Shown piece by piece: positions 2,074-21,217 of a stretch of DNA of 21,217 nucleotides. A model generated the notes under the pieces. It was given only the letters and a program-made list of their open reading frames with translations, made no database searches and had not been told where the DNA came from. Both the position numbers and the translations under genes were made by a program. The stretch is from a virus, in IMG/VR virus record IMGVR_UViG_3300028025_000801, positions 1 through 21,217 of that record; one strand, given 5' to 3'. How positions within the stretch are numbered: the stretch's first letter is position 1; each line of letters opens with the position of its first letter.

Positions 2074-2387
2074 AGTTTTACTTTAAGCACGTTGTTAGCT
2101 GTGGTGTCGTAATAAACGTCGCCTACCTTCAAGTTAACCAAGTCTGCCTCTGTGGGTAGGCTAACAACCCGAACGCCATTGCTATCTACTAGGCTGAAGT
2201 TCAGCGCCGATACAATCTGGTTACCGCCCCGGATGTTTACATACTGAGTAGACGCAGCGCATGGCCCCGGATTATCTAACGTCTGGAAGTAAAGACGCAG
2301 GATATTAAGTAGAGTGTCCATGTATCGTTGGGTGTACTCAATAGGCGCAGCGGGGAGCGTAGGGGCTTTAGTTGTCCCAGTTGACAT
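2070..2387 (-). CDS. Small conserved phage protein next to tail-hub gene, 105 aa
   Basis: No function recognised. The protein begins MSTGTTKAPTLPAAP, has a helical segment (about residues 17-35, with YMDTLLNILRLYFQ) and ends in a beta-rich half with a VGDVYYDTTANNVLKV strand-turn-strand that resembles short virion spike or fibre domains. The frame is open 18 codons further upstream, but the ATG at 2387 is preferred: GGAAGGAG stands seven bases before it and it overlaps the TAA of the tail-hub gene by one base (TAATG). Its end overlaps the GNAT-like gene as ATGA. A tail or trimerisation role would fit the context but is inference. Confidence 0.8.
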   Translation of the reverse strand: MSTGTTKAPTLPAAPIEYTQRYMDTLLNILRLYFQTLDNPGPCAASTQYVNIRGGNQIVSALNFSLVDSNGVRVVSLPTEADLVNLKVGDVYYDTTANNVLKVKL

Positions 2388-4846
2388 TATGCTCTCCTTC
2401 CGTCCGGACGTACATCCATACGCGGCACTCCTAACTGCCATTGGGTGCCTAACGTATTTGACTCAACTCTAAACGCCATTTGCCTACCCCGTAGGCGGGT
2501 ATATATCTGTTGGGTAAACGTCTGTACGTTGTATGTATTGACGTTTGTATAGTTTTCTAACGAAGTAACTACTGGCTCGTCAGTCACACCATACGGGGCA
2601 CCGGGGTTCTTACGTGGTTTGATGATGAACTTGGCGCTAGGCGCGTTTACGGTAGAGCCGTTAAAAGTTATGTCAGGCACAATTCTCCAGACAAACCCGT
2701 AGTCATGTCCGTCATTTATGTCGTAGTCAGACGATTGAACAAAAGCATTAATAGCAGTAGCTGGCAGCGTAGACCCATCATCCACACCGTTCTCATGTTC
2801 AACTAATATGTTTCCGTAAGTAGCAGCAAGAGGGTAATTACGTGTTGTGCTATCTATCCATGCTGTACGCCCTAACTTGCCGTAGTACCAAACGCCATCA
2901 AGGTAGTTGTATATAACGTAGCGGTCTACTACTGTGTTTGGGTTAGCCCGAGTGCCTGTGCCGTCGGAGCCGGTGATAGACGGATAAAACCACCATATCT
3001 CGCTGTAGGCTTCGTTAGAACCGCCCGTGCATTGGAACGCTTGGTCTTTATTAAAGTCTTCAAAGACATACTGACGTAGCGTGCAAGGTAGCGTCTCAAC
3101 ACGGCCTGAGTAAACGTAGAATTTATCTACACCCATCCAGTAGGTAATGCCGTTGGCAGTTGCTGCGGCATTGGGGCCAGCTAGTGAAATGTTATCCGCT
3201 AAGATGTTAAACCCGTATACATACGGTGGGCCTTGGTATTGCATTGAATACACAGCCGAATCAGTCCACACCAAAATCTCTTGACGAGTTTGCAGAGCGC
3301 CAACAATATAAGACCCATGCGACAGTCGGTAGCTACCCGCTTGGTTAGTAGTGCTAGGGGTCCAAAGTAAATAGCTCTCGTTAGTAGACCAACGAATAAG
3401 CAACGGGTCTTGTACAGTAGTGTCGTAATCGCCGTAATCGTTGCAACCAAAACAAATAACGATACGTGTAGAGTCCGATACAAGGATAGTATTTATCTTT
3501 GAAGGCACGTCAGGCACTGCCAGAATCTGAATGCCAGACTGTGTACCTGTTGTATTGATAGCAGCACCGCCTACCGTGGTAGATAAATTACATGTATTGC
3601 CAGTCAAATTAACTACGTAGTAAGTAGTTGTTGTATTTACCCCGGTAGGCAGTGCCCCTGTAGTACGCAGTTTAAATGGCGTGCCGTTAGGTAACGGCGT
3701 GGTTAACGTAATAACAGCGGGCGTGCCTATAGAAATAGTAATGCCTTGCGCCCCGTTAATTAGCTGCGCAGGGGTGGTATACGCTGGGTTAGTTGGGCCG
3801 GGTTGCCATATATACAGAGCACCAGTACGCGGTGATATAAGTAGGTTTTCACCAAAGTTAGCTTGCGACCATAGACGAATCTGATCTGCAATACCTGCTG
3901 AGTAACCCGAACCCCATGTGCCACGACTCCAAGGGCCAGCACTCCACCCAGTACCACTAGTGTATATGGCGCTTCCTACATTGATTTGATACGTGGCTGT
4001 AGTATAAGGGCCACCTGTACCAGTGTCAGTTGTTAACGCTACAACCGCTGCGCCGGGCGCTTCTACAGTAGTGCCTGCTTCTCTAGCATTAAACGTGTAG
4101 TAGGTTGTTGCCCCTACTGTATATATGTTTGTTATCTGGTATTGCTGATTAAGAACAGCAGTAGATATACCCGCAGCTACAGAAAGAGTATGCGTACCTG
4201 ATTGCGTGCCAGTAGTGTTGAGCGGCGAACCGTTAGGACCAATAGATAAATTGCAGGTCAACCCAGAAACATTAACCACGTAGTATGTGGTACCAACAGT
4301 AAGCCCAGTAGGAAGAGCGCCAGTAGTAGTCAAAGTGACGGGCGTGTTATTTGCCAACGCTGTAGTAAGCGTAAGTACCGCAGGAGAAGCTATGGTTACA
4401 GTAAACGCTTGCGAGTTCAAACCTAACGCACCGGAGAAAGTAACAAAGTCGCCCGTACGCGCACCCGCTACGCCAAGCTGATCGTCTACAATAATAGAAG
4501 AAGAGCCGGGGGTTGCAGTGAATGTAATTGTGCCACCAATACCTGCGTACCCTGTTGTTGTACGCACAGGGGTAATGTCGTAGTATTGCCCGCCAATGTC
4601 TTCAATATAAAACTTTAAGTTAGTACCTACGCCTACAAGGTTGTAGCTGGATAAAGTTATCCAATTCCACAATGAACGGCACACACCTAAAAATACGTTG
4701 AACGAAACCGCAGCCCACCCACCAATTTTTTCTGGGTATCCGGAACGAAACCTAATTTTGTCGCATTCAAAATAACCCCCTTCGTTGGAAAGGGAAGTAC
4801 CCTCGCGGTTAACCCCGGGGCGGAACTGTAGTTTCTGCAAAGGCAT
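2387..4846 (-). CDS. Putative tail hub/nozzle (packaged-DNA stabilisation-like) protein, 819 aa
   Basis: Probably a structural protein of the short tail, comparable in role to the P22 gp10 / T7 gp12 nozzle, though the assignment is by recollection of similar environmental-phage proteins. It opens MPLQKLQFRPGVNREGTS, followed by Trp- and Tyr-rich beta segments. Residues about 250-330 contain GWSAGPWSRGTWGSG, and residues about 600-690 contain EIWWFYPS and YNYLDGVWYYGKLGR, typical of propeller-like blades. Two copies of a Thr-rich module (about 150-222 and 368-443) interrupt this core. The ATG at 4846 follows the zinc-ribbon gene stop by two bases, with AGGT just upstream. The gene is longer than a core-only version would be because of the two modules. 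A different tail protein is possible. Confidence 0.75.
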   Translation of the reverse strand: MPLQKLQFRPGVNREGTSLSNEGGYFECDKIRFRSGYPEKIGGWAAVSFNVFLGVCRSLWNWITLSSYNLVGVGTNLKFYIEDIGGQYYDITPVRTTTGYAGIGGTITFTATPGSSSIIVDDQLGVAGARTGDFVTFSGALGLNSQAFTVTIASPAVLTLTTALANNTPVTLTTTGALPTGLTVGTTYYVVNVSGLTCNLSIGPNGSPLNTTGTQSGTHTLSVAAGISTAVLNQQYQITNIYTVGATTYYTFNAREAGTTVEAPGAAVVALTTDTGTGGPYTTATYQINVGSAIYTSGTGWSAGPWSRGTWGSGYSAGIADQIRLWSQANFGENLLISPRTGALYIWQPGPTNPAYTTPAQLINGAQGITISIGTPAVITLTTPLPNGTPFKLRTTGALPTGVNTTTTYYVVNLTGNTCNLSTTVGGAAINTTGTQSGIQILAVPDVPSKINTILVSDSTRIVICFGCNDYGDYDTTVQDPLLIRWSTNESYLLWTPSTTNQAGSYRLSHGSYIVGALQTRQEILVWTDSAVYSMQYQGPPYVYGFNILADNISLAGPNAAATANGITYWMGVDKFYVYSGRVETLPCTLRQYVFEDFNKDQAFQCTGGSNEAYSEIWWFYPSITGSDGTGTRANPNTVVDRYVIYNYLDGVWYYGKLGRTAWIDSTTRNYPLAATYGNILVEHENGVDDGSTLPATAINAFVQSSDYDINDGHDYGFVWRIVPDITFNGSTVNAPSAKFIIKPRKNPGAPYGVTDEPVVTSLENYTNVNTYNVQTFTQQIYTRLRGRQMAFRVESNTLGTQWQLGVPRMDVRPDGRRA
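3520..3740 (-). repeat. Thr-rich beta module, copy 2 (in tail-hub gene)
   Basis: Encodes about 74 residues with the landmarks TTGALPTGV, TTYYVVNLTGNTCNLS and NTTGTQSG. The same landmarks occur in copy 1 of this gene and in the 537-aa fibre-like gene. Boundaries are approximate. Confidence 0.75.
4180..4392 (-). repeat. Thr-rich beta module, copy 1 (in tail-hub gene)
   Basis: Encodes about 72 residues with TTTGALPTGL, TTYYVVNVSGLTCNLS and NTTGTQSGTHTL. It is more like the 537-aa gene copy than like copy 2 of its own gene (both have the VSGLTCNLS/ISGLTCNLS type). Boundaries are approximate. Confidence 0.75.
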
Positions 4847-13769: not shown

Positions 13770-15383
13770 TTAGCCGAGAGAGTAAACAAAATTACGGCCC
13801 CCAGCTATATAACCGGGGCTTGCCTCAACAAATACAGTAATAGTGCCAGCGGTAGCACAATATGCAGCTACACTAATACCGTCCATTTCTAGTTCATCTC
13901 CCGCACCATCCAGAAGGGCGATGGGGACATAAAATCCAGAACCTAAACCTCCTATGACTGCACTGCTCGCAAACAACACGTCGCCATAAGAATATCCAGT
14001 ACCTGTACCGTTAGTAGCTATTGTCACCGAAGTAACCGCACCTACACTAACAATTAATGTTGAAGCAACCGCACCAGTGCCAGTAGCACTATTTAAAGTA
14101 TGAACCCCAGATTGAGTACCAGATGTTGTGATCGGTGTACCGCCCGGAGTCGCAGATAAATTACAAGTCAGACCAGAAATATTCACTACGTAATACGTAG
14201 TGTTCGCTGTTAGTCCTGTAGGTAAAGCTCCTGTAGTAGTAAGACGTACAGGAGTATTAGGTGGTAATAAATTAGTAAGTAGAATAACCGCTGGGCTTGC
14301 AATAGATATAGTTACCGTCTGCGTGCTAATTAACGATACGTTATTGTATGTACCATCCGTATACGCAGAACCAGCGGCAAAACTCCCTAGCCCAAATATT
14401 TTACCGGCGCTTGTCGCAACCGGGTCTATTACTATTTTGCTGCTCGTAGTAGCGTTTACATCTGCAACCGTAGCGTAGTAAGAACGCATTGGTACTGTAG
14501 GGCTGTAAGCGTTACCAATAGTTATAGTTGTGGCTGAATACGCCGTAGTTTGTATTGTACCGTTAGGGTATTTAAAACCCCCAGTAGTTGACTCTACAAC
14601 ACCTGCTGCACGAATTTTAGAAGTGCCCGCATCATCGGATGTGGTACCCACCAACAAGTTATTAGTAGTCGGTGCAAACCGCGCTACCTCGTTAGCAGCT
14701 AACGTACCGCCTTGGAAGAACTTTACTGACTTACCGGCAGTGGCTACACCAATAGCTAAGTTGGTGCTTTGTGAATAAATGTACCCGTCGTTAGCCCCGG
14801 CAATAGTAAAAGTGCCTAGGTTATATGTTGAGCCATTAATACCAAAGTCTACGTAGTAAGTAGTGTCAGTACCGTTATCAGCAGTCAACACAAGGTCAGT
14901 AGACGCGCTATTACCGGCGCTTAAGTTCTGATAGTTGATCTGCGAATAGTTATCAACATTACCAAAGAAAGAAGCAACAGAATAATTTAACGCTGTACCG
15001 GTACCGTTGTTATTAACAGTAAGTGGGCTATTAACCGTGCTGGTTAACGCTAACACACCATTAGGGTCTAAGTTAACTGACCTACCTGATGGGTAAGTTA
15101 CAAAAACAGTTTTTGTGCCCGCCGTAAATACTACAGGGCTATTTGAGTTAGACGACTTGTATACAGTTGTACGAGTAAGTATTGTGCCGGTAGCGTCAAG
15201 CGTACCAAAACCTACTTCCCATTCGCTAGCGTTGTTACTAGCAATGGTGTAGTAAGTAGTGTTGCTTGCCCCAATACCAGACGAAAAAGATTGAAACCCA
15301 GAAGGGGCACCTGCAAGAGTAAAAGTACCTGTACCAACACTGGTAGAAGTTTCTAGTACCCTATCATTAATAACGAATGCCAT
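13770..15383 (-). CDS. Tail-fibre-like protein with N-terminal virion module, 537 aa
   Basis: The first 105 residues (MAFVINDRVLETSTSVGTGT, TYYTIASN, WEVGFGTLDATGTILTR, VFVTYPSGR) form a module I associate with phage tail proteins. Then come Thr/Ser/Asn-rich beta repeats including YVDFGINGSTYNLGTF and KVRA-type strands. A copy of the Thr-rich module (TTGALPTGL, TTYYVVNISGLTCNLS, TTSGTQSG) lies at about residues 358-430. The last 100 residues form a compact beta end (LEMDGISVAAYCATAGTITV). The ATG at 15383 has AGGGGG five bases before it. Probably a fibre or spike component; chaperone-dependent folding cannot be judged. Confidence 0.8.
   Translation of the reverse strand: MAFVINDRVLETSTSVGTGTFTLAGAPSGFQSFSSGIGASNTTYYTIASNNASEWEVGFGTLDATGTILTRTTVYKSSNSNSPVVFTAGTKTVFVTYPSGRSVNLDPNGVLALTSTVNSPLTVNNNGTGTALNYSVASFFGNVDNYSQINYQNLSAGNSASTDLVLTADNGTDTTYYVDFGINGSTYNLGTFTIAGANDGYIYSQSTNLAIGVATAGKSVKFFQGGTLAANEVARFAPTTNNLLVGTTSDDAGTSKIRAAGVVESTTGGFKYPNGTIQTTAYSATTITIGNAYSPTVPMRSYYATVADVNATTSSKIVIDPVATSAGKIFGLGSFAAGSAYTDGTYNNVSLISTQTVTISIASPAVILLTNLLPPNTPVRLTTTGALPTGLTANTTYYVVNISGLTCNLSATPGGTPITTSGTQSGVHTLNSATGTGAVASTLIVSVGAVTSVTIATNGTGTGYSYGDVLFASSAVIGGLGSGFYVPIALLDGAGDELEMDGISVAAYCATAGTITVFVEASPGYIAGGRNFVYSLG
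14095..14312 (-). repeat. Thr-rich beta module, copy 3 (in 537-aa fibre-like gene)
   Basis: Encodes about 72 residues with the same ordered landmarks as the two copies in the tail-hub gene: TTTGALPTGL, then TTYYVVNISGLTCNLS, then TTSGTQSGVHTL. Boundaries are approximate. Confidence 0.75.
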
Positions 15384-16570: not shown

Positions 16571-16828
16571 TTACGCCATTGGACCACGGCACATTGTGCC
16601 TTTAGTTGCCGCACCAGCACCGCGCATCTTGATGCCGCTGGTTTTAGTTTCTTTGTAATTGCCCTTGCTAATGCCACCAACCGAAGGGTTGGATTCATTA
16701 ATTACTTTGGCACCAGCTGTGTACGACAAGTCACCCTTTACAGCTTTACCGTCCATAGTGTGCGGTTTAGCGTAAACAGCGCCTTGGCCTACTTCTTTAC
16801 CTTTAACTTTTTGCGAGAACTTAGCCAT
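16571..16828 (-). CDS. Small basic protein with C-terminal RGPMA, 85 aa
   Basis: Lys/Gly-rich protein of unknown function. The last 21 residues contain SGIKMRGAGAATKGTMCRG and end PMA; I recall similar short C-terminal motifs in uncultured aquatic phages. The sequence is likely disordered, with little hydrophobic core. GAGGT six bases before the ATG is a strong start, overlapping the 57-aa gene stop as TAATG. With its small neighbours it may be a virion-associated nucleic-acid- or capsid-binding peptide; this is inference. Confidence 0.78.
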   Translation of the reverse strand: MAKFSQKVKGKEVGQGAVYAKPHTMDGKAVKGDLSYTAGAKVINESNPSVGGISKGNYKETKTSGIKMRGAGAATKGTMCRGPMA

Positions 16829-17001
16829 TATCGACCTCTCTGGTTATTAGCACGGGCCATGTTGCGACCAACTTTACGCATAGCTTGGCCTGTAACGCCG
16901 CCCTTTTTCATGCCGTGCATTTTTTTCTCATGCGATTTGACTTCCTGCTTAGCAATCTTCTTGATAAGCGGCTTGTCTTCTTTTGCGTCACTGTTTTTCA
17001 T
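16828..17001 (-). CDS. Very small basic protein with MKKGG motif, 57 aa
   Basis: An ORF too short for most gene finders, fully supported by context. ATG at 17001 has AGGAG five bases before it, and its TAA overlaps the ATG of the 85-aa gene by one base. The protein is about one third Lys/Arg: AKEDKPLIKKIAKQEVKSH, then MKKGGVTGQAMRKVGRNMAR, ending NNQRGR. The MKKGG motif (residues 31-35) is shared with other genes in the window. Function unknown; a DNA- or capsid-binding peptide would fit. Confidence 0.8.
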   Translation of the reverse strand: MKNSDAKEDKPLIKKIAKQEVKSHEKKMHGMKKGGVTGQAMRKVGRNMARANNQRGR

Positions 17002-17009
17002 AATTACTC

Positions 17010-17423
17010 CTAGGTAATAGTTACCGTTAAATTCCCGACCTGTCCTTGCCCTACTAAGTTGTTAGGGGTCAAACCGTTGTCGTTAGCTCTTGCCCCGCCT
17101 ATGGGGTTCCAGCCCCATTGGATAATCCGACTACCTTCACCCGGAGTACCGAAGTCAGTATTCAAAGTAAGCTGCAATCCACCATAGCCTGACTGGTAAT
17201 AGCTGTTGTCTGGCCTTGGTTCGCGCACCGCTTGTGGGTCATCCACGGGGTACATACCCAGTTGCAGTTGTGGATGATCTTGCTCCCAACAGTTCTTACA
17301 TACTTTGATGCTAACCTGTTTGGTCTTAATCGTCAGCTTCTTTAGCTCTTTTAACTTATAGCGGAACCCACACCGATCACACTCGGCAATAGAATGCTTA
17401 CCGCTGGCAAACCGGTTGCCCAT
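17010..17423 (-). CDS. Zinc-ribbon phage protein, 137 aa
   Basis: An N-terminal metal site: CDRC (C15, C18) and CKNC (C42, C45) around a very basic stretch LKELKKLTIKTKQ, which should form a zinc ribbon. It is followed by HPQLQLGMYPVDDPQAVREP, a Pro/Asp-rich linker, and a Gly/Asn-rich C-terminus (GWNPIGGARANDNGL). Similar proteins are common near adaptor genes of aquatic phages in my recollection. It lies between the 246-aa adaptor-like gene and the small basic genes; its stop TAG overlaps the AGGAG of the 57-aa gene. Role may be virion structure or nucleic-acid binding. Confidence 0.82.
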   Translation of the reverse strand: MGNRFASGKHSIAECDRCGFRYKLKELKKLTIKTKQVSIKVCKNCWEQDHPQLQLGMYPVDDPQAVREPRPDNSYYQSGYGGLQLTLNTDFGTPGEGSRIIQWGWNPIGGARANDNGLTPNNLVGQGQVGNLTVTIT

Positions 17424-17425
17424 AA

Positions 17426-18166
17426 TTAAAAGAACGACTCACGAGGCACGAAGCGAATAGCAGCTTTTTCTCTATCTTCCTCAGACGCTAAAGTCCACGC
17501 TTCGTCGTACATCAATTTTAAAGCTTGCGCCCGATCAGGCGACACGTCTGGCAGCTTTATAGAAAGCATAAACGCCAAGCCAGCAGTCATAGCATTCAAA
17601 AATCTAAACGGTATATCCACCACGTTAGTACCTGTACCAGCGTCGTACATCCTACGCATGCGCCAGTAATAAAACACGTAGTACGGCTGTTGAGTTGTAC
17701 CTTGGTCCGGTGCGGGCCACACGTTAATCTGTGGGTTCTTTGCAGTAGCAGCTTCTGACCCAGCCTTCTGCCCATCTTGCCTATTAACCCAAACCTGAAT
17801 AGGACGCCCTTGCGCCAGCTTGTTAGGTATAGTTGAGTAGGTAGAAACAGAAATACGCGTGATGTTCAAATCAGTCTGGTTAGGGCCTTGTCCGGAATCA
17901 GTGCGAATAACATGTTCAATAAGATCAACGGTATCAATAGGTAGATCATACGTAGTGACTCCTTGCGCTAAATTGATCGAACCCTGCTCAATAGTCCACA
18001 GGTTAATCCCACGGTTAGCCCACTCAGCCAACAAGTAATTCAAGCTACGCCTAGCCGTACGGAAGTCGTAACCAGACCGTAGCTCTTTGCCACAGCGCTC
18101 AAACGCCTCTTCAAATATATCGTTGAGGGTTGGGTTAAAACTAGTAGTGGCTGTTGTGTAGGCCAT
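17426..18166 (-). CDS. Head-tail adaptor-like protein, 246 aa
   Basis: Probable connector or tail accessory protein. N-terminal helices (LNDIFEEAFERCGKELRSGY, RRSLNYLLAEWANRGINLW) resemble the P22 gp4-type adaptor helices, where an acidic/aromatic helix packs against the portal. A beta block follows (TTYDLPIDTVDLIEHVI; later NVWPAPDQ and YYVFYYWRMRR), and a C-terminal helical region (PFRFLNAMTAGLAFMLSIKL, RAQALKLMYDEAWTLASEEDREK). The ATG immediately follows the stop of the 105-aa Lys-rich gene (TAAATG). Pairing with the 243-aa protein suggests two stacked adaptor rings. Alternative: a tail tubular protein. Confidence 0.8.
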   Translation of the reverse strand: MAYTTATTSFNPTLNDIFEEAFERCGKELRSGYDFRTARRSLNYLLAEWANRGINLWTIEQGSINLAQGVTTYDLPIDTVDLIEHVIRTDSGQGPNQTDLNITRISVSTYSTIPNKLAQGRPIQVWVNRQDGQKAGSEAATAKNPQINVWPAPDQGTTQQPYYVFYYWRMRRMYDAGTGTNVVDIPFRFLNAMTAGLAFMLSIKLPDVSPDRAQALKLMYDEAWTLASEEDREKAAIRFVPRESFF

Positions 18167-18484
18167 TTAAGCTCTCGTCTTACCTCTAATTGCTATACCG
18201 TCTGCACGGGCCGAAGCGGATTTAACTTTGCCGCCTTTTTTCATACCTAAACCTTTTTTGTATACGTCGCCGTATTCTTTAGCAAACTTAGTTACTTCGT
18301 CGCCAAGCTTAGATGCTTTGTCTTTGATGTAATCAACAGCGTCGCTTACCGCTTTGCGGGGAGCTTCGTTCTCTTCTTTTTCTTTAGCTTTTTCGCGCAG
18401 ATAACCAGCGTATTCATCACGGTTCAGCTTATCTTGCTTAGCGTTTTCTGCGTAGCTATCTTTAGGGGTTGTATCTTTAGGCAT
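18167..18484 (-). CDS. Lys-rich helical protein with MKKGG and DGIA-RGKTR end, 105 aa
   Basis: Highly charged; residues about 17-75 are a long helix with DEYAGYLREKAKEKEENEAP and ASKLGDEVTKFAKEYGDVY, perhaps a coiled coil. The end is basic: MKKGGKVKSASARADGIAI then RGKTRA. The frame extends upstream, but ATG at 18484 is preferred, with GAGG five bases before it and starting just after the TGA of the 163-aa gene. Function unknown; the basic tail suggests contact with DNA or an acidic capsid surface. Confidence 0.8.
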   Translation of the reverse strand: MPKDTTPKDSYAENAKQDKLNRDEYAGYLREKAKEKEENEAPRKAVSDAVDYIKDKASKLGDEVTKFAKEYGDVYKKGLGMKKGGKVKSASARADGIAIRGKTRA

Positions 18485-18491
18485 CTTATCC

Positions 18492-18983
18492 TCACATGTA
18501 TCCGGGGTCATAGGGGGTGTAACCGGGCGGTTGGCTTGGCTGCGGTTGTTGCCCTTGTTGCTGTTGCGGTCCTTGCGGCATACCTTGTGGCAAACCTCTA
18601 AGCATTTCCGCCATTTTCTGTAACGGCATTTGTTGAGGCATGCCTTGTGGGTTTTGCCCTTGTTGCATCTGTGGTGGTGGCATGCGAGTCGGGTTAAACA
18701 TACCGGGTGGTGGCATAGGGCCACGAGGGCCGTACGGACCAAACATCATCCCGGGAGGTGGCATACCGGGGCGACGCATCATCTGCGGGGGCATACCCAT
18801 AGGAGGCCTAGAGAAGTTAGGGTTAAACGGAGTCATACCCCCCTGAGGTCCTTGTTGGTTTTGCTGCCCAAATGGGTTGGGCGCAAAGGTGCTCATATCC
18901 TGACGGGTTGCCTGCTGGTTCTGTTGCCCCATAGGTTGTCCGCCTGTACTTGCCCCTGCTCCACCTACTCCGCCATTAGCCAT
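18492..18983 (-). CDS. Pro/Gln/Met/Gly-rich low-complexity protein, 163 aa
   Basis: Almost entirely low complexity: QQNQQ, GPQGG, PPMGMPPQMMRRPGMPPPG, PQGMPQGPQQQQGQQ, ending PPGYTPYDPGYM. A short leucine/methionine segment (LQKMAEMLRGL, about residues 122-132) is the only part that might fold. Such proteins are usually disordered. Codon-phase composition is consistent and it sits in the operon with a tiny gap to each neighbour, so I take it as real. Shine-Dalgarno is weak. Function unknown; could be a flexible virion or assembly-scaffold component. Confidence 0.75.
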   Translation of the reverse strand: MANGGVGGAGASTGGQPMGQQNQQATRQDMSTFAPNPFGQQNQQGPQGGMTPFNPNFSRPPMGMPPQMMRRPGMPPPGMMFGPYGPRGPMPPPGMFNPTRMPPPQMQQGQNPQGMPQQMPLQKMAEMLRGLPQGMPQGPQQQQGQQPQPSQPPGYTPYDPGYM

Positions 18984-18990
18984 AACTATC

Positions 18991-19164
18991 TCACTTCATC
19001 TTTTTTAGGGTTTGGGCAAGCCTTGCACGTTGCCCCAACTTGCCGGGCTTTTTCGCAGCCGCTGCAAGTTTCTTTGCCGGTATTGGCTTGTTGCCTTTTG
19101 CGCCAAGCTGAGCACGAAGAGCACCGGGTTTTTTGATAGCTTTCTGTATCCATTTTTCAGCCAT
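18991..19164 (-). CDS. Very small basic protein with KPGALR and GQRARLAQTLKK motifs, 57 aa
   Basis: Read directly from the sequence: ATG at 19164, TGA at 18991. It begins MAEKWIQKAIKKPGALRAQL, continues GAKGNKPIPAKKLAAAAKKP and ends GKLGQRARLAQTLKKMK. I recall the KPGAL and R-x-x-LA-x-TL combination as a small motif widespread in phages of many hosts, without a known function. Lys/Arg/Ala make up most of it. Its ATG overlaps the preceding gene's TAA by one base (TAATG), and AGGG stands upstream. A DNA-binding, virion-internal role is plausible. Confidence 0.82.
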   Translation of the reverse strand: MAEKWIQKAIKKPGALRAQLGAKGNKPIPAKKLAAAAKKPGKLGQRARLAQTLKKMK

Positions 19165-19397
19165 TATCTATACCCTGCTGTTTTCTTTGCGATACCTTTA
19201 GGTTGCGCAACAAACTGTTTTCCCGCCTTCTTACCCGCCCGTTTTGCCTTTGTTGTAGCAGCATACTCGGCGGGGCTTAACGCTTTAATCGCCTTTTCAG
19301 GTAGGTACCGCTCCCCAGTCTTTGACGACGGCTTTCCGCTTTTGGTTCGCCATTTCTGGTCACCCCAAGCTTTTAAGCTTTGCTGTGGCGCTTTCAA
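19164..19397 (-). CDS. Small conserved basic protein, TTG start, 77 aa
   Basis: Contains KAWGDQKWRTKSGKPSSKTG, ERYLPEKAIKALSPAEYAAT and a Lys/Ala-rich C-terminus. I recall this W-RTKSGKPS-TGERYLP pattern as a widespread small phage protein with no established function. No ATG exists between the in-frame stop upstream and this block; a TTG at 19397 overlaps the stop of the 38-aa gene as TTGA, with GAGG about ten bases before it. I therefore choose TTG. Likely DNA- or protein-binding in the virion, unproven. Confidence 0.8.
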   Translation of the reverse strand: MKAPQQSLKAWGDQKWRTKSGKPSSKTGERYLPEKAIKALSPAEYAATTKAKRAGKKAGKQFVAQPKGIAKKTAGYR

Positions 19398-19510
19398 TCT
19401 TTTGCGTCCTCTTTTTCAAGCAGTTCAGCGTCTATCTGCTCGTCCGTCATGGCGTCGCAAGTACACTCACCCGCTACGTCAATCAAACAATCTTCTATGT
19501 GTTTAGTCAC
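19394..19510 (-). CDS. Tiny acidic Cys-containing protein, GTG start, 38 aa
   Basis: A gene below usual length cut-offs. It starts at GTG 19510, eight bases inside the 91-aa gene's end, with GGAGGG four bases before the GTG, and stops at TGA overlapping the TTG of the next gene (TTGA). The protein contains HIEDCLIDVAGECTCDAMTD and an acidic tail (DEQIDAELLEKEDAKD). H4, C8, C16 and C18 could bind a metal ion, though this is a guess. It is strongly acidic amid a run of basic proteins. Confidence 0.75.
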   Translation of the reverse strand: MTKHIEDCLIDVAGECTCDAMTDEQIDAELLEKEDAKD

Positions 19511-19778
19511 GGTACCCTCCACCTGCTGCTTTGTACTTCTTAGCTACCAACTGCGCTTTACGGGCTGACCACTGCCCTGCGCCTGTGCCATGCGTTGCTG
19601 CGGCTTTAACTTGGCTTACGATCTTTTTACGTAGATCGGGCTTAGTGTAGTTACCAGCGGCATTAACCTTCCCACCATCTTTATATTGAGTAAAGTTAGT
19701 GTCATCCCGACGGGCTTTCTTCTTCCCGCCGGGCATCTTGGATGGGTTAATGTTACCCATGCCACGCGAGGCCATCAT
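19503..19778 (-). CDS. Small conserved basic protein ending GGGYRD, 91 aa
   Basis: N-terminal MMASRGMGNINPSKMPGGKK, a basic middle with YKDGGKVNAAGNYTKPDLRKK, and a C-terminal helix GQWSARKAQLVAKKYKAAGG then GYRD. I recall the TKP-xx-RK and QWSARKAQ-LAKKYK-GGGY pattern in environmental phages, always unannotated. Two adjacent ATGs (19778, 19775) are available; the first overlaps the upstream stop as TAATG. Strongly basic and probably helix plus disordered arm, compatible with nucleic acid or capsid binding. Confidence 0.83.
   Translation of the reverse strand: MMASRGMGNINPSKMPGGKKKARRDDTNFTQYKDGGKVNAAGNYTKPDLRKKIVSQVKAAATHGTGAGQWSARKAQLVAKKYKAAGGGYRD
19515..19520 (-). promoter_or_regulatory. 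Shine-Dalgarno that supports the GTG start of the 38-aa gene
   Basis: The minus strand reads GGAGGGTACCGTGACTAA, with the binding site and GTG both inside the last codons of the 91-aa gene. It is the main evidence that the tiny gene is translated. Confidence 0.7.
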
Positions 19779-20278
19779 TACTTTTTACCCTTAGCCATGC
19801 CGCCGTAGCACATCTTGTTGCTACCAGCCATCTTAATCATGGTGCCTTTAGTCTTGCCTTTAGTGGCAACACCATCACGACTAGGAGCAGCGGTACGAAC
19901 CGAACCCATCTTGCCAATAACGCCGCCTTTGGCGTACTTAGCTACACCACCACGTTTCATAGCTGGTGCTGCTGGTGCCGCTGGAGCTTTAGTAGCAGTA
20001 ACTGCTGGCTTTGATGGCGCTGGTGGCATTGATCTAGCAGGAGCTTTAGTAGCACCGGCTGGAGCCTTAGACGCCATAGCTTTATCTTTTGCAGCTTTTG
20101 CTGCTGCCATAGCTTTATCTTTTGCAGCTTGCGCCATAGCAGCTTTATTAGAGTCTCCTGCTGGTTTAGCTGCTGGTTTAGCTGCTGCCTTAGCTGGCGG
20201 TTTCATACCCATTTGTGGGCGCTTTGACCCCATACCCATTTGTGGGCGCTTTGGCCCCATACCCATTCCGAATCCCAT
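19778..20278 (-). CDS. Ala/Lys/Pro-rich histone-like disordered protein, 166 aa
   Basis: Starts with nine-residue repeats (GMGPKRPQM, GMGSKRPQM), followed by KAAAKPAAKPAG and KDKAMAAAKAAKDKAMASKA, which look like the Lys/Ala/Pro tails of histone H1-like proteins, then Pro-rich linkers. The conserved part is the end: AMKRGGVAKYAKGGVIGKMG, PSRDGVATKGKTKGTMIKM and CYGGMAKGKK. AGGAGG four bases before the ATG gives a strong start. It may bind DNA or a capsid surface; no catalytic feature is present. Confidence 0.82.
   Translation of the reverse strand: MGFGMGMGPKRPQMGMGSKRPQMGMKPPAKAAAKPAAKPAGDSNKAAMAQAAKDKAMAAAKAAKDKAMASKAPAGATKAPARSMPPAPSKPAVTATKAPAAPAAPAMKRGGVAKYAKGGVIGKMGSVRTAAPSRDGVATKGKTKGTMIKMAGSNKMCYGGMAKGKK
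20073..20130 (-). repeat. 25-bp direct repeat, 33-bp period, in Ala/Lys-rich gene
   Basis: The same 25 bases occur at 20073-20097 and 20106-20130 (gccatagctttatcttttgc plus agctt). The 33-bp period is 11 codons and gives the repeated AKDKAMA segment of the 166-aa protein. Confidence 0.85.
20204..20270 (-). repeat. 27-bp tandem repeat, about 2.5 copies, 5' end of Ala/Lys-rich gene
   Basis: Units at 20204-20230 and 20231-20257 differ at one position, and a partial third starts at 20258. The period is nine codons and encodes the KRPQMGMG-type repeat, so copy number can change without breaking the frame. Confidence 0.85.
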
Positions 20279-20317
20279 ACTGCCTCCTAAATTAAAAATT
20301 GGTTGTTACTGCTGGCA

Positions 20318-21217
20318 CTACTTTTTCAAAACATAACCACCGCGTCGCATGCTAACGGGTTGTGCGTTGTTTTGCACTATCCCAGCATTGTTTTGCGCGG
20401 GTGCAGCAGCTTGCGGTGGAGGCTGCTGTGGCGGTGGTGGTGCTTTGTTCATACCCTGCGCAATACCCATTTGATTCTGTCCTTGCTGTGGGGGCGGCGA
20501 AGGTGGTTGTTGCGGTTGTGGCTGCTGTTGTTGAGCTTGTTGCATTTGCTGCGGCTCTGGCTGCTGCCCGTACATGTCATAAGGCTGCTGATACATCTGG
20601 TTTTGGTAAGGGTCAAAAGGATTAAACCCTTGCATCATGCCGCCGTAGGGGTCGTAACCCATACCGTAACCGCCCATACCACCATAACCACCCATACCCC
20701 CGTATGGATCATATCCTTGCATACCAAACCCGTATTGAGGTTGTGGAGAGTACGGTTGGTATTGCTGTTGGTCACCAGCCTGTTGATTAAACATACCGGT
20801 GTAATCCTGTTGCTGCTGTTGCTGCTGTGTATTCTGGGCTTGCTGTGTTTTTTGATTTACAAATTTTTGCTGTTCTTGCTGTTGTTGTTTTTCTTGCGCA
20901 GCTTCCTCTTCTCTTCTTTGTTGTTGCTCTCGCTGAGCTTCTTCTACTAACGGAGCTTGCTCTTCTTGGTATTGTTTATCAAGAACGGCTTTACCCGCTG
21001 CTTTAATCTTTTCTATTTCAGCGTTAGCTCTATCAATAGCGGCTTGATTACTGCCGCCCATACCTTGATACACAGGTGCGTTTGCTTGTTTTTGAAGATT
21101 CGCTATTTGCTTTACTTGAGCTGGAGTTAAACCCTCAGCGTTTGTAGCAGAAGCAGCTTTTGCAGCGGCGGCTTTTTTGCCAGCGGCGGCTTGTGCAGCG
21201 GCAGCTTTCTTATCTTG
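20318..21217 (-). CDS. Partial CDS: Gln/Glu-rich then Tyr/Gly/Met-rich low-complexity protein (299 visible residues)
   Basis: The frame stays open to the right edge, so the true start lies outside; a GTG at 21073 is internal. The visible protein begins with Ala/Lys-rich sequence, has a conserved-looking TPAQVKQIANLQKQ, then a Glu/Gln/Arg helix (QYQEEQAPLVEEAQREQQQR) and long Gln runs. Residues about 140-190 are Tyr/Gly/Met-rich (GYDPYGGMGGYGGMGGYG), like prion-type segments, then Pro/Gln-rich, ending SMRRGGYVLKK. The Ala/Gln start and poly-Gln tract could form a coiled coil. Function unknown; probably a flexible virion or assembly protein. The 38-bp gap after its stop holds only the next Shine-Dalgarno. 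Confidence 0.75.
   Translation of the reverse strand, partial: QDKKAAAAQAAAGKKAAAAKAASATNAEGLTPAQVKQIANLQKQANAPVYQGMGGSNQAAIDRANAEIEKIKAAGKAVLDKQYQEEQAPLVEEAQREQQQRREEEAAQEKQQQQEQQKFVNQKTQQAQNTQQQQQQQDYTGMFNQQAGDQQQYQPYSPQPQYGFGMQGYDPYGGMGGYGGMGGYGMGYDPYGGMMQGFNPFDPYQNQMYQQPYDMYGQQPEPQQMQQAQQQQPQPQQPPSPPPQQGQNQMGIAQGMNKAPPPPQQPPPQAAAPAQNNAGIVQNNAQPVSMRRGGYVLKK

Follow-up and report, generated by a model that had tools for sequence, protein, structure and literature searches.

In phage T4, the capsid targeting sequence (CTS) of the internal proteins is N-terminal and is removed by the head protease. The internal proteins themselves form a highly diverse set, in which only the CTS is conserved (PMC3012670). 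Encapsulin cargo-loading peptides are short, are terminal (at either end) and occur on unrelated cargo proteins, the genes of which adjoin that of the HK97-fold shell; several cargos per shell are possible (PMC7355545). The subject here is a conserved peptide of about 26 residues, mostly C-terminal (the tag), carried by small proteins with otherwise unrelated bodies and encoded in a 21,217-base IMG/VR viral contig (IMGVR_UViG_3300028025_000801; the window, meaning this whole stretch), the genes of which are on the minus strand, to which all window coordinates below refer. A sequence-only reading of the window had noticed a short motif, M[KR][KR]GG, recurring in unrelated small proteins, and had proposed that it is a shared signal; that proposal is strongly supported and extends to the longer C-terminal tag.

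Like the T4 CTS, the tag is a short conserved peptide on diverse proteins, here in 112 body families (E<1e-5), and its identity is independent of the body. By contrast with the CTS, it is mostly C-terminal and is unrelated in sequence. Searches of 12 contigs for a head protease gave none of S78 or ClpP type, the S77 search being without a working control. As with encapsulin cargo, the tagged genes share an interval with the shell gene, 217 of 218 tags being downstream of the major capsid protein (MCP) gene, and, as with encapsulin peptides, which can be at either end, some tagged homologues have an N-terminal core. The tag differs from encapsulin peptides in being longer, basic and of different sequence, and in that the particle is a DNA-filled phage head; binding to the shell would be by analogy. 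For podovirus ejection proteins, e.g. of P22, T7 and SU10, the analogous role would be that of small virion proteins delivered with the DNA; no homology of the tagged proteins to these was found, and, to our knowledge, known podovirus ejection proteins have not been described as having a common terminal tag. The SU10/Pam1-type phages DSL-LC04, HTVC023P, CRP-901 and Pag-Yong1 share a homologous adaptor, capsid protein and gene order with the tag carriers; unlike these, however, the named relatives are without the tag, apart from one weak form, in protein UMO75986.1 of Pag-Yong1 (RDGCAKRGRTKGRFI, which runs up to the stop).

Tag sequence and lineage

In the 105-aa protein, encoded directly upstream of the adaptor gene (18167..18484, ATG at 18484; homologues in family 3), the motif MKKGG (18230-18244) opens a C-terminal tag, MKKGGKVKSASARADGIAIRGKTRA, that runs to the stop codon (18170..18244) and that comparison of homologues reveals to be common to many otherwise unrelated proteins. 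The lineage consensus, [MYF]KKGGKVxSASxRADG[IC]AQRGKT[RK]G[RK][MI][VC] and then stop, and the column conservation were derived from 269 tags with a core ending four residues before the stop. Four columns (D, G, G and T) never vary, K is conserved at 0.99 and a later G at 0.98, whereas the GG of the short motif is only ~55% conserved in a fixed register. In 33 further tags the core is one residue from the end, as in the ...RGKTRA terminus in the window, and overall 304 of 424 cores end 1-5 residues before the stop. The tag of the 105-aa protein is of class A; in class B the core is 11-22 residues from the end and is followed by a second Lys/Gly-rich stretch. Class B is represented in the window by the 166-aa Ala/Lys-rich protein (19778..20278), in which a variant core, RDGVATKGKTKG (19844-19879), lies within the tag region MKRGGVAKYAKGGVIGKMGSVRTAAPSRDGVATKGKTKGTMIKMAGSNKMCYGGMAKGKK (19781..19960), as placed by the class B alignment. 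An N-terminal core occurs only in homologues of the 57-aa protein of the window (16828-17001), in one sub-lineage, those of L131, L174, L186, L188 and L190 having it at or near the N-terminus; in L188 (3249-3438), L186 (8344-8533) and L190 (9956-10181) the core in the N-terminal region is followed by KNLGDSG, and a similar stretch, KRGHTRGKNMGDSG, is present close to the C-terminus of the homologue of the 166-aa protein in L008, the nearest relative of the window. The segment G[IC]AQRGKT fits the Walker A pattern GxxxxGK[ST]. A P-loop was rejected, with the core K being replaced by R in L082, L084 and Pag-Yong1, with only 1-5 residues following the core in class A, and with the tag being predicted as coil.

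In total, 184 viral loci yielded 424 distinct tagged proteins, a single genome encoding as many as 5. At the DNA level, a degenerate pattern for ADG[IV]AQRGKT matches at least 120 viral stretches, as against only two matches in bacterial and archaeal genomes totalling 257 Gb. One of the two, L205, itself belongs to a phage; it shares the gene order of the lineage and was filed in a gammaproteobacterial metagenome-assembled genome (LinL1_bin-0432); the other (L206, Polaromonas) is a long frame antisense to a transporter-like open reading frame, and was taken as chance. The presence of several class A tagged proteins and cluster genes within LinL1_bin-0432 may reflect contamination or be a hint as to the host.

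The tag carriers are a freshwater lineage of short-tailed phages, mostly uncultured, with a Pam1/SU10-type adaptor and a Mu-gpT-like capsid protein; the homologous DSL-LC04 MCP matches PF25209 and PF10124. In the window, the adaptor is the 246-aa protein encoded beside the motif proteins (17426..18166), a homologue of SU10/Pam1-type portal adaptors (PF24175; 43% identity to the DSL-LC04 adaptor protein), the gene of which is the downstream limit of the tagged interval. PF24175 scores above its cut-off in both this and a 251-aa protein, marking an adaptor of the SU10 type. Scanning viral contigs with the 246-aa protein gave 80 related loci, and the named phages related to the window are DSL-LC04, HTVC023P, HTVC027P, CRP-901/902 and Pag-Yong1. 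All but two of the 184 tagged loci also hold the lineage capsid, adaptor, cement or next-to-adaptor gene, the other two being shorter than 1.7 kb. Conversely, of the 47 loci that were fetched by the adaptor alone and extend 3 kb or more upstream of it, 46 proved to be tagged (mean 2.9 tags), and in the remaining one, L048, a class B tag was recognised by eye.

A profile of the tag, run over 16 contigs 43-67 kb in length, picks out 1-5 sites in each. With one exception these sites fall between the capsid gene and the adaptor gene; the exception, an extra weak match at 14235 in G016, lies shortly beyond the adaptor (E 0.002). When all loci are pooled, the tag precedes the adaptor in 404 of 414 cases. 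Class A tags directly after the adaptor number three (two in L123, one in L196); in seven loci the core is in a short post-adaptor gene homologous to that of the 57-aa protein, and L205 has an additional tagged 203-aa gene just after the adaptor.

The tag has no match in Pfam, PHROG or the PDB, nor by tblastn in INPHARED, the latter being a weak test in that a 28-aa query was used with filtering. In the literature, the one text match to RGKTRG was irrelevant, none of the titles listed for phage C-terminal tags was seen to be relevant, and papers on DSL-LC04 and on phages of the HTVC023P type gave neither virion proteomics nor passages on the motif.

Modularity, turnover and the short motif

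The tag is real, lineage-specific and modular, is kept by selection at the peptide level, and is retained through recombinational exchange of the bodies. Tags on different bodies within one locus have 87% amino acid identity over the core, yet 54% of the shared core residues use different codons, compared with 59% expected at random; such near-random codon use among the tags of one genome indicates that selection acts on the peptide. Core identity is 75-81% at every level of body identity, and is 76% where the bodies show no similarity. DUF6321 proteins are found with and without the tag; in about 100 loci, tagless relatives included, they end ...LRAW[KN]C or similar, whereas in at least nine (L107, L123, L126, L163, L172, L173, L194, L198 and L205) this end continues into A[DE]GGYVxxADGIAQRGKTKG or a variant. 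In L008, the adaptor of which is 95% identical to that of the window, the body encoded by the last gene before the adaptor is unrelated to its window counterpart, and DNA homology resumes 75 nt before the end of the stop codon, exactly at the start of the tag. Of 101 pairs with unrelated bodies, which are not independent of one another, 37 have their homology edge between -90 and -60 nt, and a single pair has it beyond -90 on the upstream side. Taken together, codon use, body-independent identity, DUF6321 with and without the tag, and the L008 edge argue for peptide-level selection, rather than copying.

Tagged bodies also recur less widely than the untagged genes around them. With rising adaptor identity, the fraction of tagged bodies with a homologue in a related locus, compared with that of untagged genes of the same interval, is 0.21/0.39, 0.23/0.44, 0.33/0.47 and 0.52/0.63; for post-adaptor genes the values are 0.70-0.84. 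This is supporting evidence only, since short, low-complexity bodies are harder to detect.

The eight motif stretches listed in the sequence-only reading are all in frame on the minus strand. In addition to MKKGG of the 105-aa protein, they comprise MKRGG (19946-19960) and YAKGG (19922-19936) in the 166-aa protein; MKKGG (16897-16911) in the 57-aa protein, which in the window is without the long core; YKDGG (19671-19685) in the 91-aa protein (19503-19778; PHROG 17747), also without the long core and conserved as Y[KA][DEK]GGKVNAAGNYTKP; MRRGG (20336-20350), at residue 290 of a partial 299-aa Gln-rich protein, 6 residues from its end and again without the long core, the counterparts of which end QPVSMRRGGYAWKR in L008 and AKRGGIMKGYK in L025; and YADGG (851-865) and YSDGG (311-325) in the 548-aa protein, which have a different context. 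The motif is real, although its description was incomplete, in that in two proteins it is merely the N-terminal edge of a much longer C-terminal element, as part of which it is also found in homologues.

M[KR][KR]GG is far more frequent in the upstream proteins than composition predicts. When the residues of each protein were permuted, either singly or with GG held as one unit, 0.027 or 0.053 occurrences were expected in the 13 upstream proteins (window 21217-15837), as against the 4 present, a count reached in 0 of 3000 shuffles; there are none in the 16 downstream window proteins. The wider form [MYF]x[KRDEN]GG, which takes in the Tyr-x-Lys/Asp-Gly-Gly that had been grouped with the motif, is likewise enriched upstream (7 compared with 0.55/0.93 expected), whereas the downstream cases, those of the 548-aa protein included, are not clearly above chance (4 compared with 1.03 or 1.88, p 0.017 or 0.12). 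Enrichment of [MYF]x[KRDENSA]GG in the gene cluster before the adaptor persists when the tags are taken out (34 compared with 11.4, z 6.7); elsewhere in the same loci there is no such excess (42 compared with 41.7 expected). In three tagless relative phages the short motif occurs 10 times in small proteins, compared with about 3 expected, as counted on annotated genes because the gene caller drops many of their small basic genes. From its enrichment without tags and in tagless relatives, the short motif seems to predate the long tag and to be of more general occurrence. At the opposite end of the proteins, 59 of the 424 tagged sequences start MKK(K)x[KR][YF]xxGG.

Predicted structures and neighbouring genes

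An AlphaFold2 model of the 105-aa protein has one long helix (residues 7-78) followed by coil, and one of a class B protein has a three-helix N-terminal domain; both models are of low confidence (pTM 0.28-0.29), and in both the tag is modelled as low-confidence coil. A linear docking motif would be compatible with this prediction of a tag on a flexible tail. A Pfam search of 86 body representatives gave only DUF6321 as a clear match, with one further marginal match. The class B N-terminal domain also occurs as a stand-alone ~58-aa protein in phiKZ-like phages, is found at the start of proteins that carry a structural annotation in phages 121Q and CBB, and in Stenotrophomonas phage BUCT555 is encoded between the portal-position and capsid genes; its presence in structural-annotated proteins and its position in BUCT555 hint at a role in the head. 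A 43-aa N-terminal domain, MPSKSKKQHNFMEAVAHNPxFAKKVGVPQSVGKDF, is common to class B tagged proteins, the small phiKZ-like proteins and the structural-annotated proteins, its carriers including L138 (3131-3592) and phages KTN4, PA7, 201phi2-1, 121Q and BUCT555.

Other features of the window may be noted. The 85-aa protein (16571-16828) has a conserved tail that resembles the tag, KTSGIKMRGAGAATKGTMCRGPMA (16574..16645; homologues KTDGIKIRGTGAATKGVMARGPMA); it and its homologues end KTDGIKIRGTGAATKGxxARGPMA, a second conserved C-terminal element that is similar to the tag core (DGI..RG) and may be related to it. Low-complexity proteins rich in Gln, Pro and Met are encoded among the tagged genes (18492-18983 and 20318-21217), and are found in few relatives (L008, L011, L025 and L042). 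A module of ~50 residues, LTTTGALPTGLTxxTTYYVVNxSGLTCNLS...TQSGxHTL, is present twice in an 819-aa and once in a 537-aa structural protein (2387-4846 and 13770-15383). A small GNAT acetyltransferase-like protein (1696-2073) adjoins the 548-aa protein; annotated GNAT genes are likewise within the structural regions of CRP-901 and QDWS535.

Possible roles of the tag

The likeness to the T4 CTS and to encapsulin cargo peptides, together with the number, position and modularity of the tags, favours the tag being a modular docking peptide that acts in virion or capsid loading, a proposal to which we give about an even chance. The loading itself, delivery with the DNA and a binding partner are all inferred. 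One to five late genes between the MCP and adaptor genes encode small, charged, mostly helical or disordered tagged proteins; under this proposal, the tag, on a flexible tail, would bind one common virion component, which may be the capsid interior, scaffold or portal vertex; and a rotating set of proteins would so be loaded into the particle, and probably be delivered together with the DNA. Several points weigh against it. Neither virion proteomics nor a structure could be found for any phage bearing the tag, such that presence in the virion is suggested only by gene position and distant homology, and no binding partner of the tag was identified. DSL-LC04 is without the tag, though its MCP is 62-65% identical to MCPs of the tag lineage, so that capsid does not require it. 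The low conservation of the bodies could partly reflect their short, low-complexity sequences.

It may be instead that the tag docks to the neck, i.e. to the adaptor or portal assembly, the tagged proteins being exchangeable accessories of the head-tail joint rather than cargo. The tagged genes lie shortly before the adaptor gene, which some of them adjoin, and no locus selected by its adaptor is without a tag if it extends far enough upstream; however, it would be unusual for the parts of a symmetric joint to number from one to five per genome and to have unrelated bodies that are rapidly exchanged, and this alternative is considered unlikely. The tag might also be a basic tail that binds nucleic acid and serves to condense or coat the packaged DNA, with the conserved residues mattering mainly for charge and flexibility; a mean net charge of +6.8 over ~30 residues of tag, and bodies that are themselves basic (mean +7.1), would be in accord with this. 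It is rather improbable, given that four invariant positions (D, G, G, T) and several near-invariant ones (K, A, G) point to specific recognition rather than to charge alone. Of slightly lower probability again is an intracellular role on non-virion proteins, e.g. in localisation, stability or the binding of a host or phage enzyme; the absence of direct virion evidence and the almost complete absence of known domains in the bodies would allow this, whereas the genes lie inside the structural cluster of every contig examined.

Protease processing after Gly-Gly, which had been offered as one role for the short motif, would have a head protease cut there and remove the tag, much as T4 internal proteins, for which there is precedent for proteolysis (PMC3012670), are trimmed. 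GG does precede the conserved tail, but the conserved part lies past it, up to the stop codon; the GG is far less well kept than the invariant tag residues; and neither an S78 nor a ClpP-type protease was detected in the 12 contigs, which are long, nor was one of S77 type, in a search without a working positive control. Such processing is very unlikely. Finally, the proteins are rich in Lys, Gly and Ala, and the tag might be put down to chance, to low complexity or to one DNA segment having been copied recently; this explanation is refuted by the shuffles, by the near-random codons within genomes, and by the DNA pattern, the two cellular matches to which are a phage contig and an antisense frame.

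To return to loading, it may be, at somewhat less than even odds, that the tag is a C-terminal, apparently uncleaved capsid cargo-loading peptide, fixed within a widespread lineage of freshwater phages, to which recombination keeps adding bodies, such that each phage would package its own set of proteins and inject it with the DNA, e.g. against host defences. The body-swap pattern predicts that the tagged bodies are fast-turning delivered proteins. If the tag does direct loading, it would provide a sequence handle for predicting which phage proteins of unknown function enter the virion, enabling the 112 body families, nearly all unannotated, to be sorted together, and it may be a possible tool for putting foreign proteins into a phage head. 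It would then also represent a second, independent solution to the problem solved by the T4 internal proteins.

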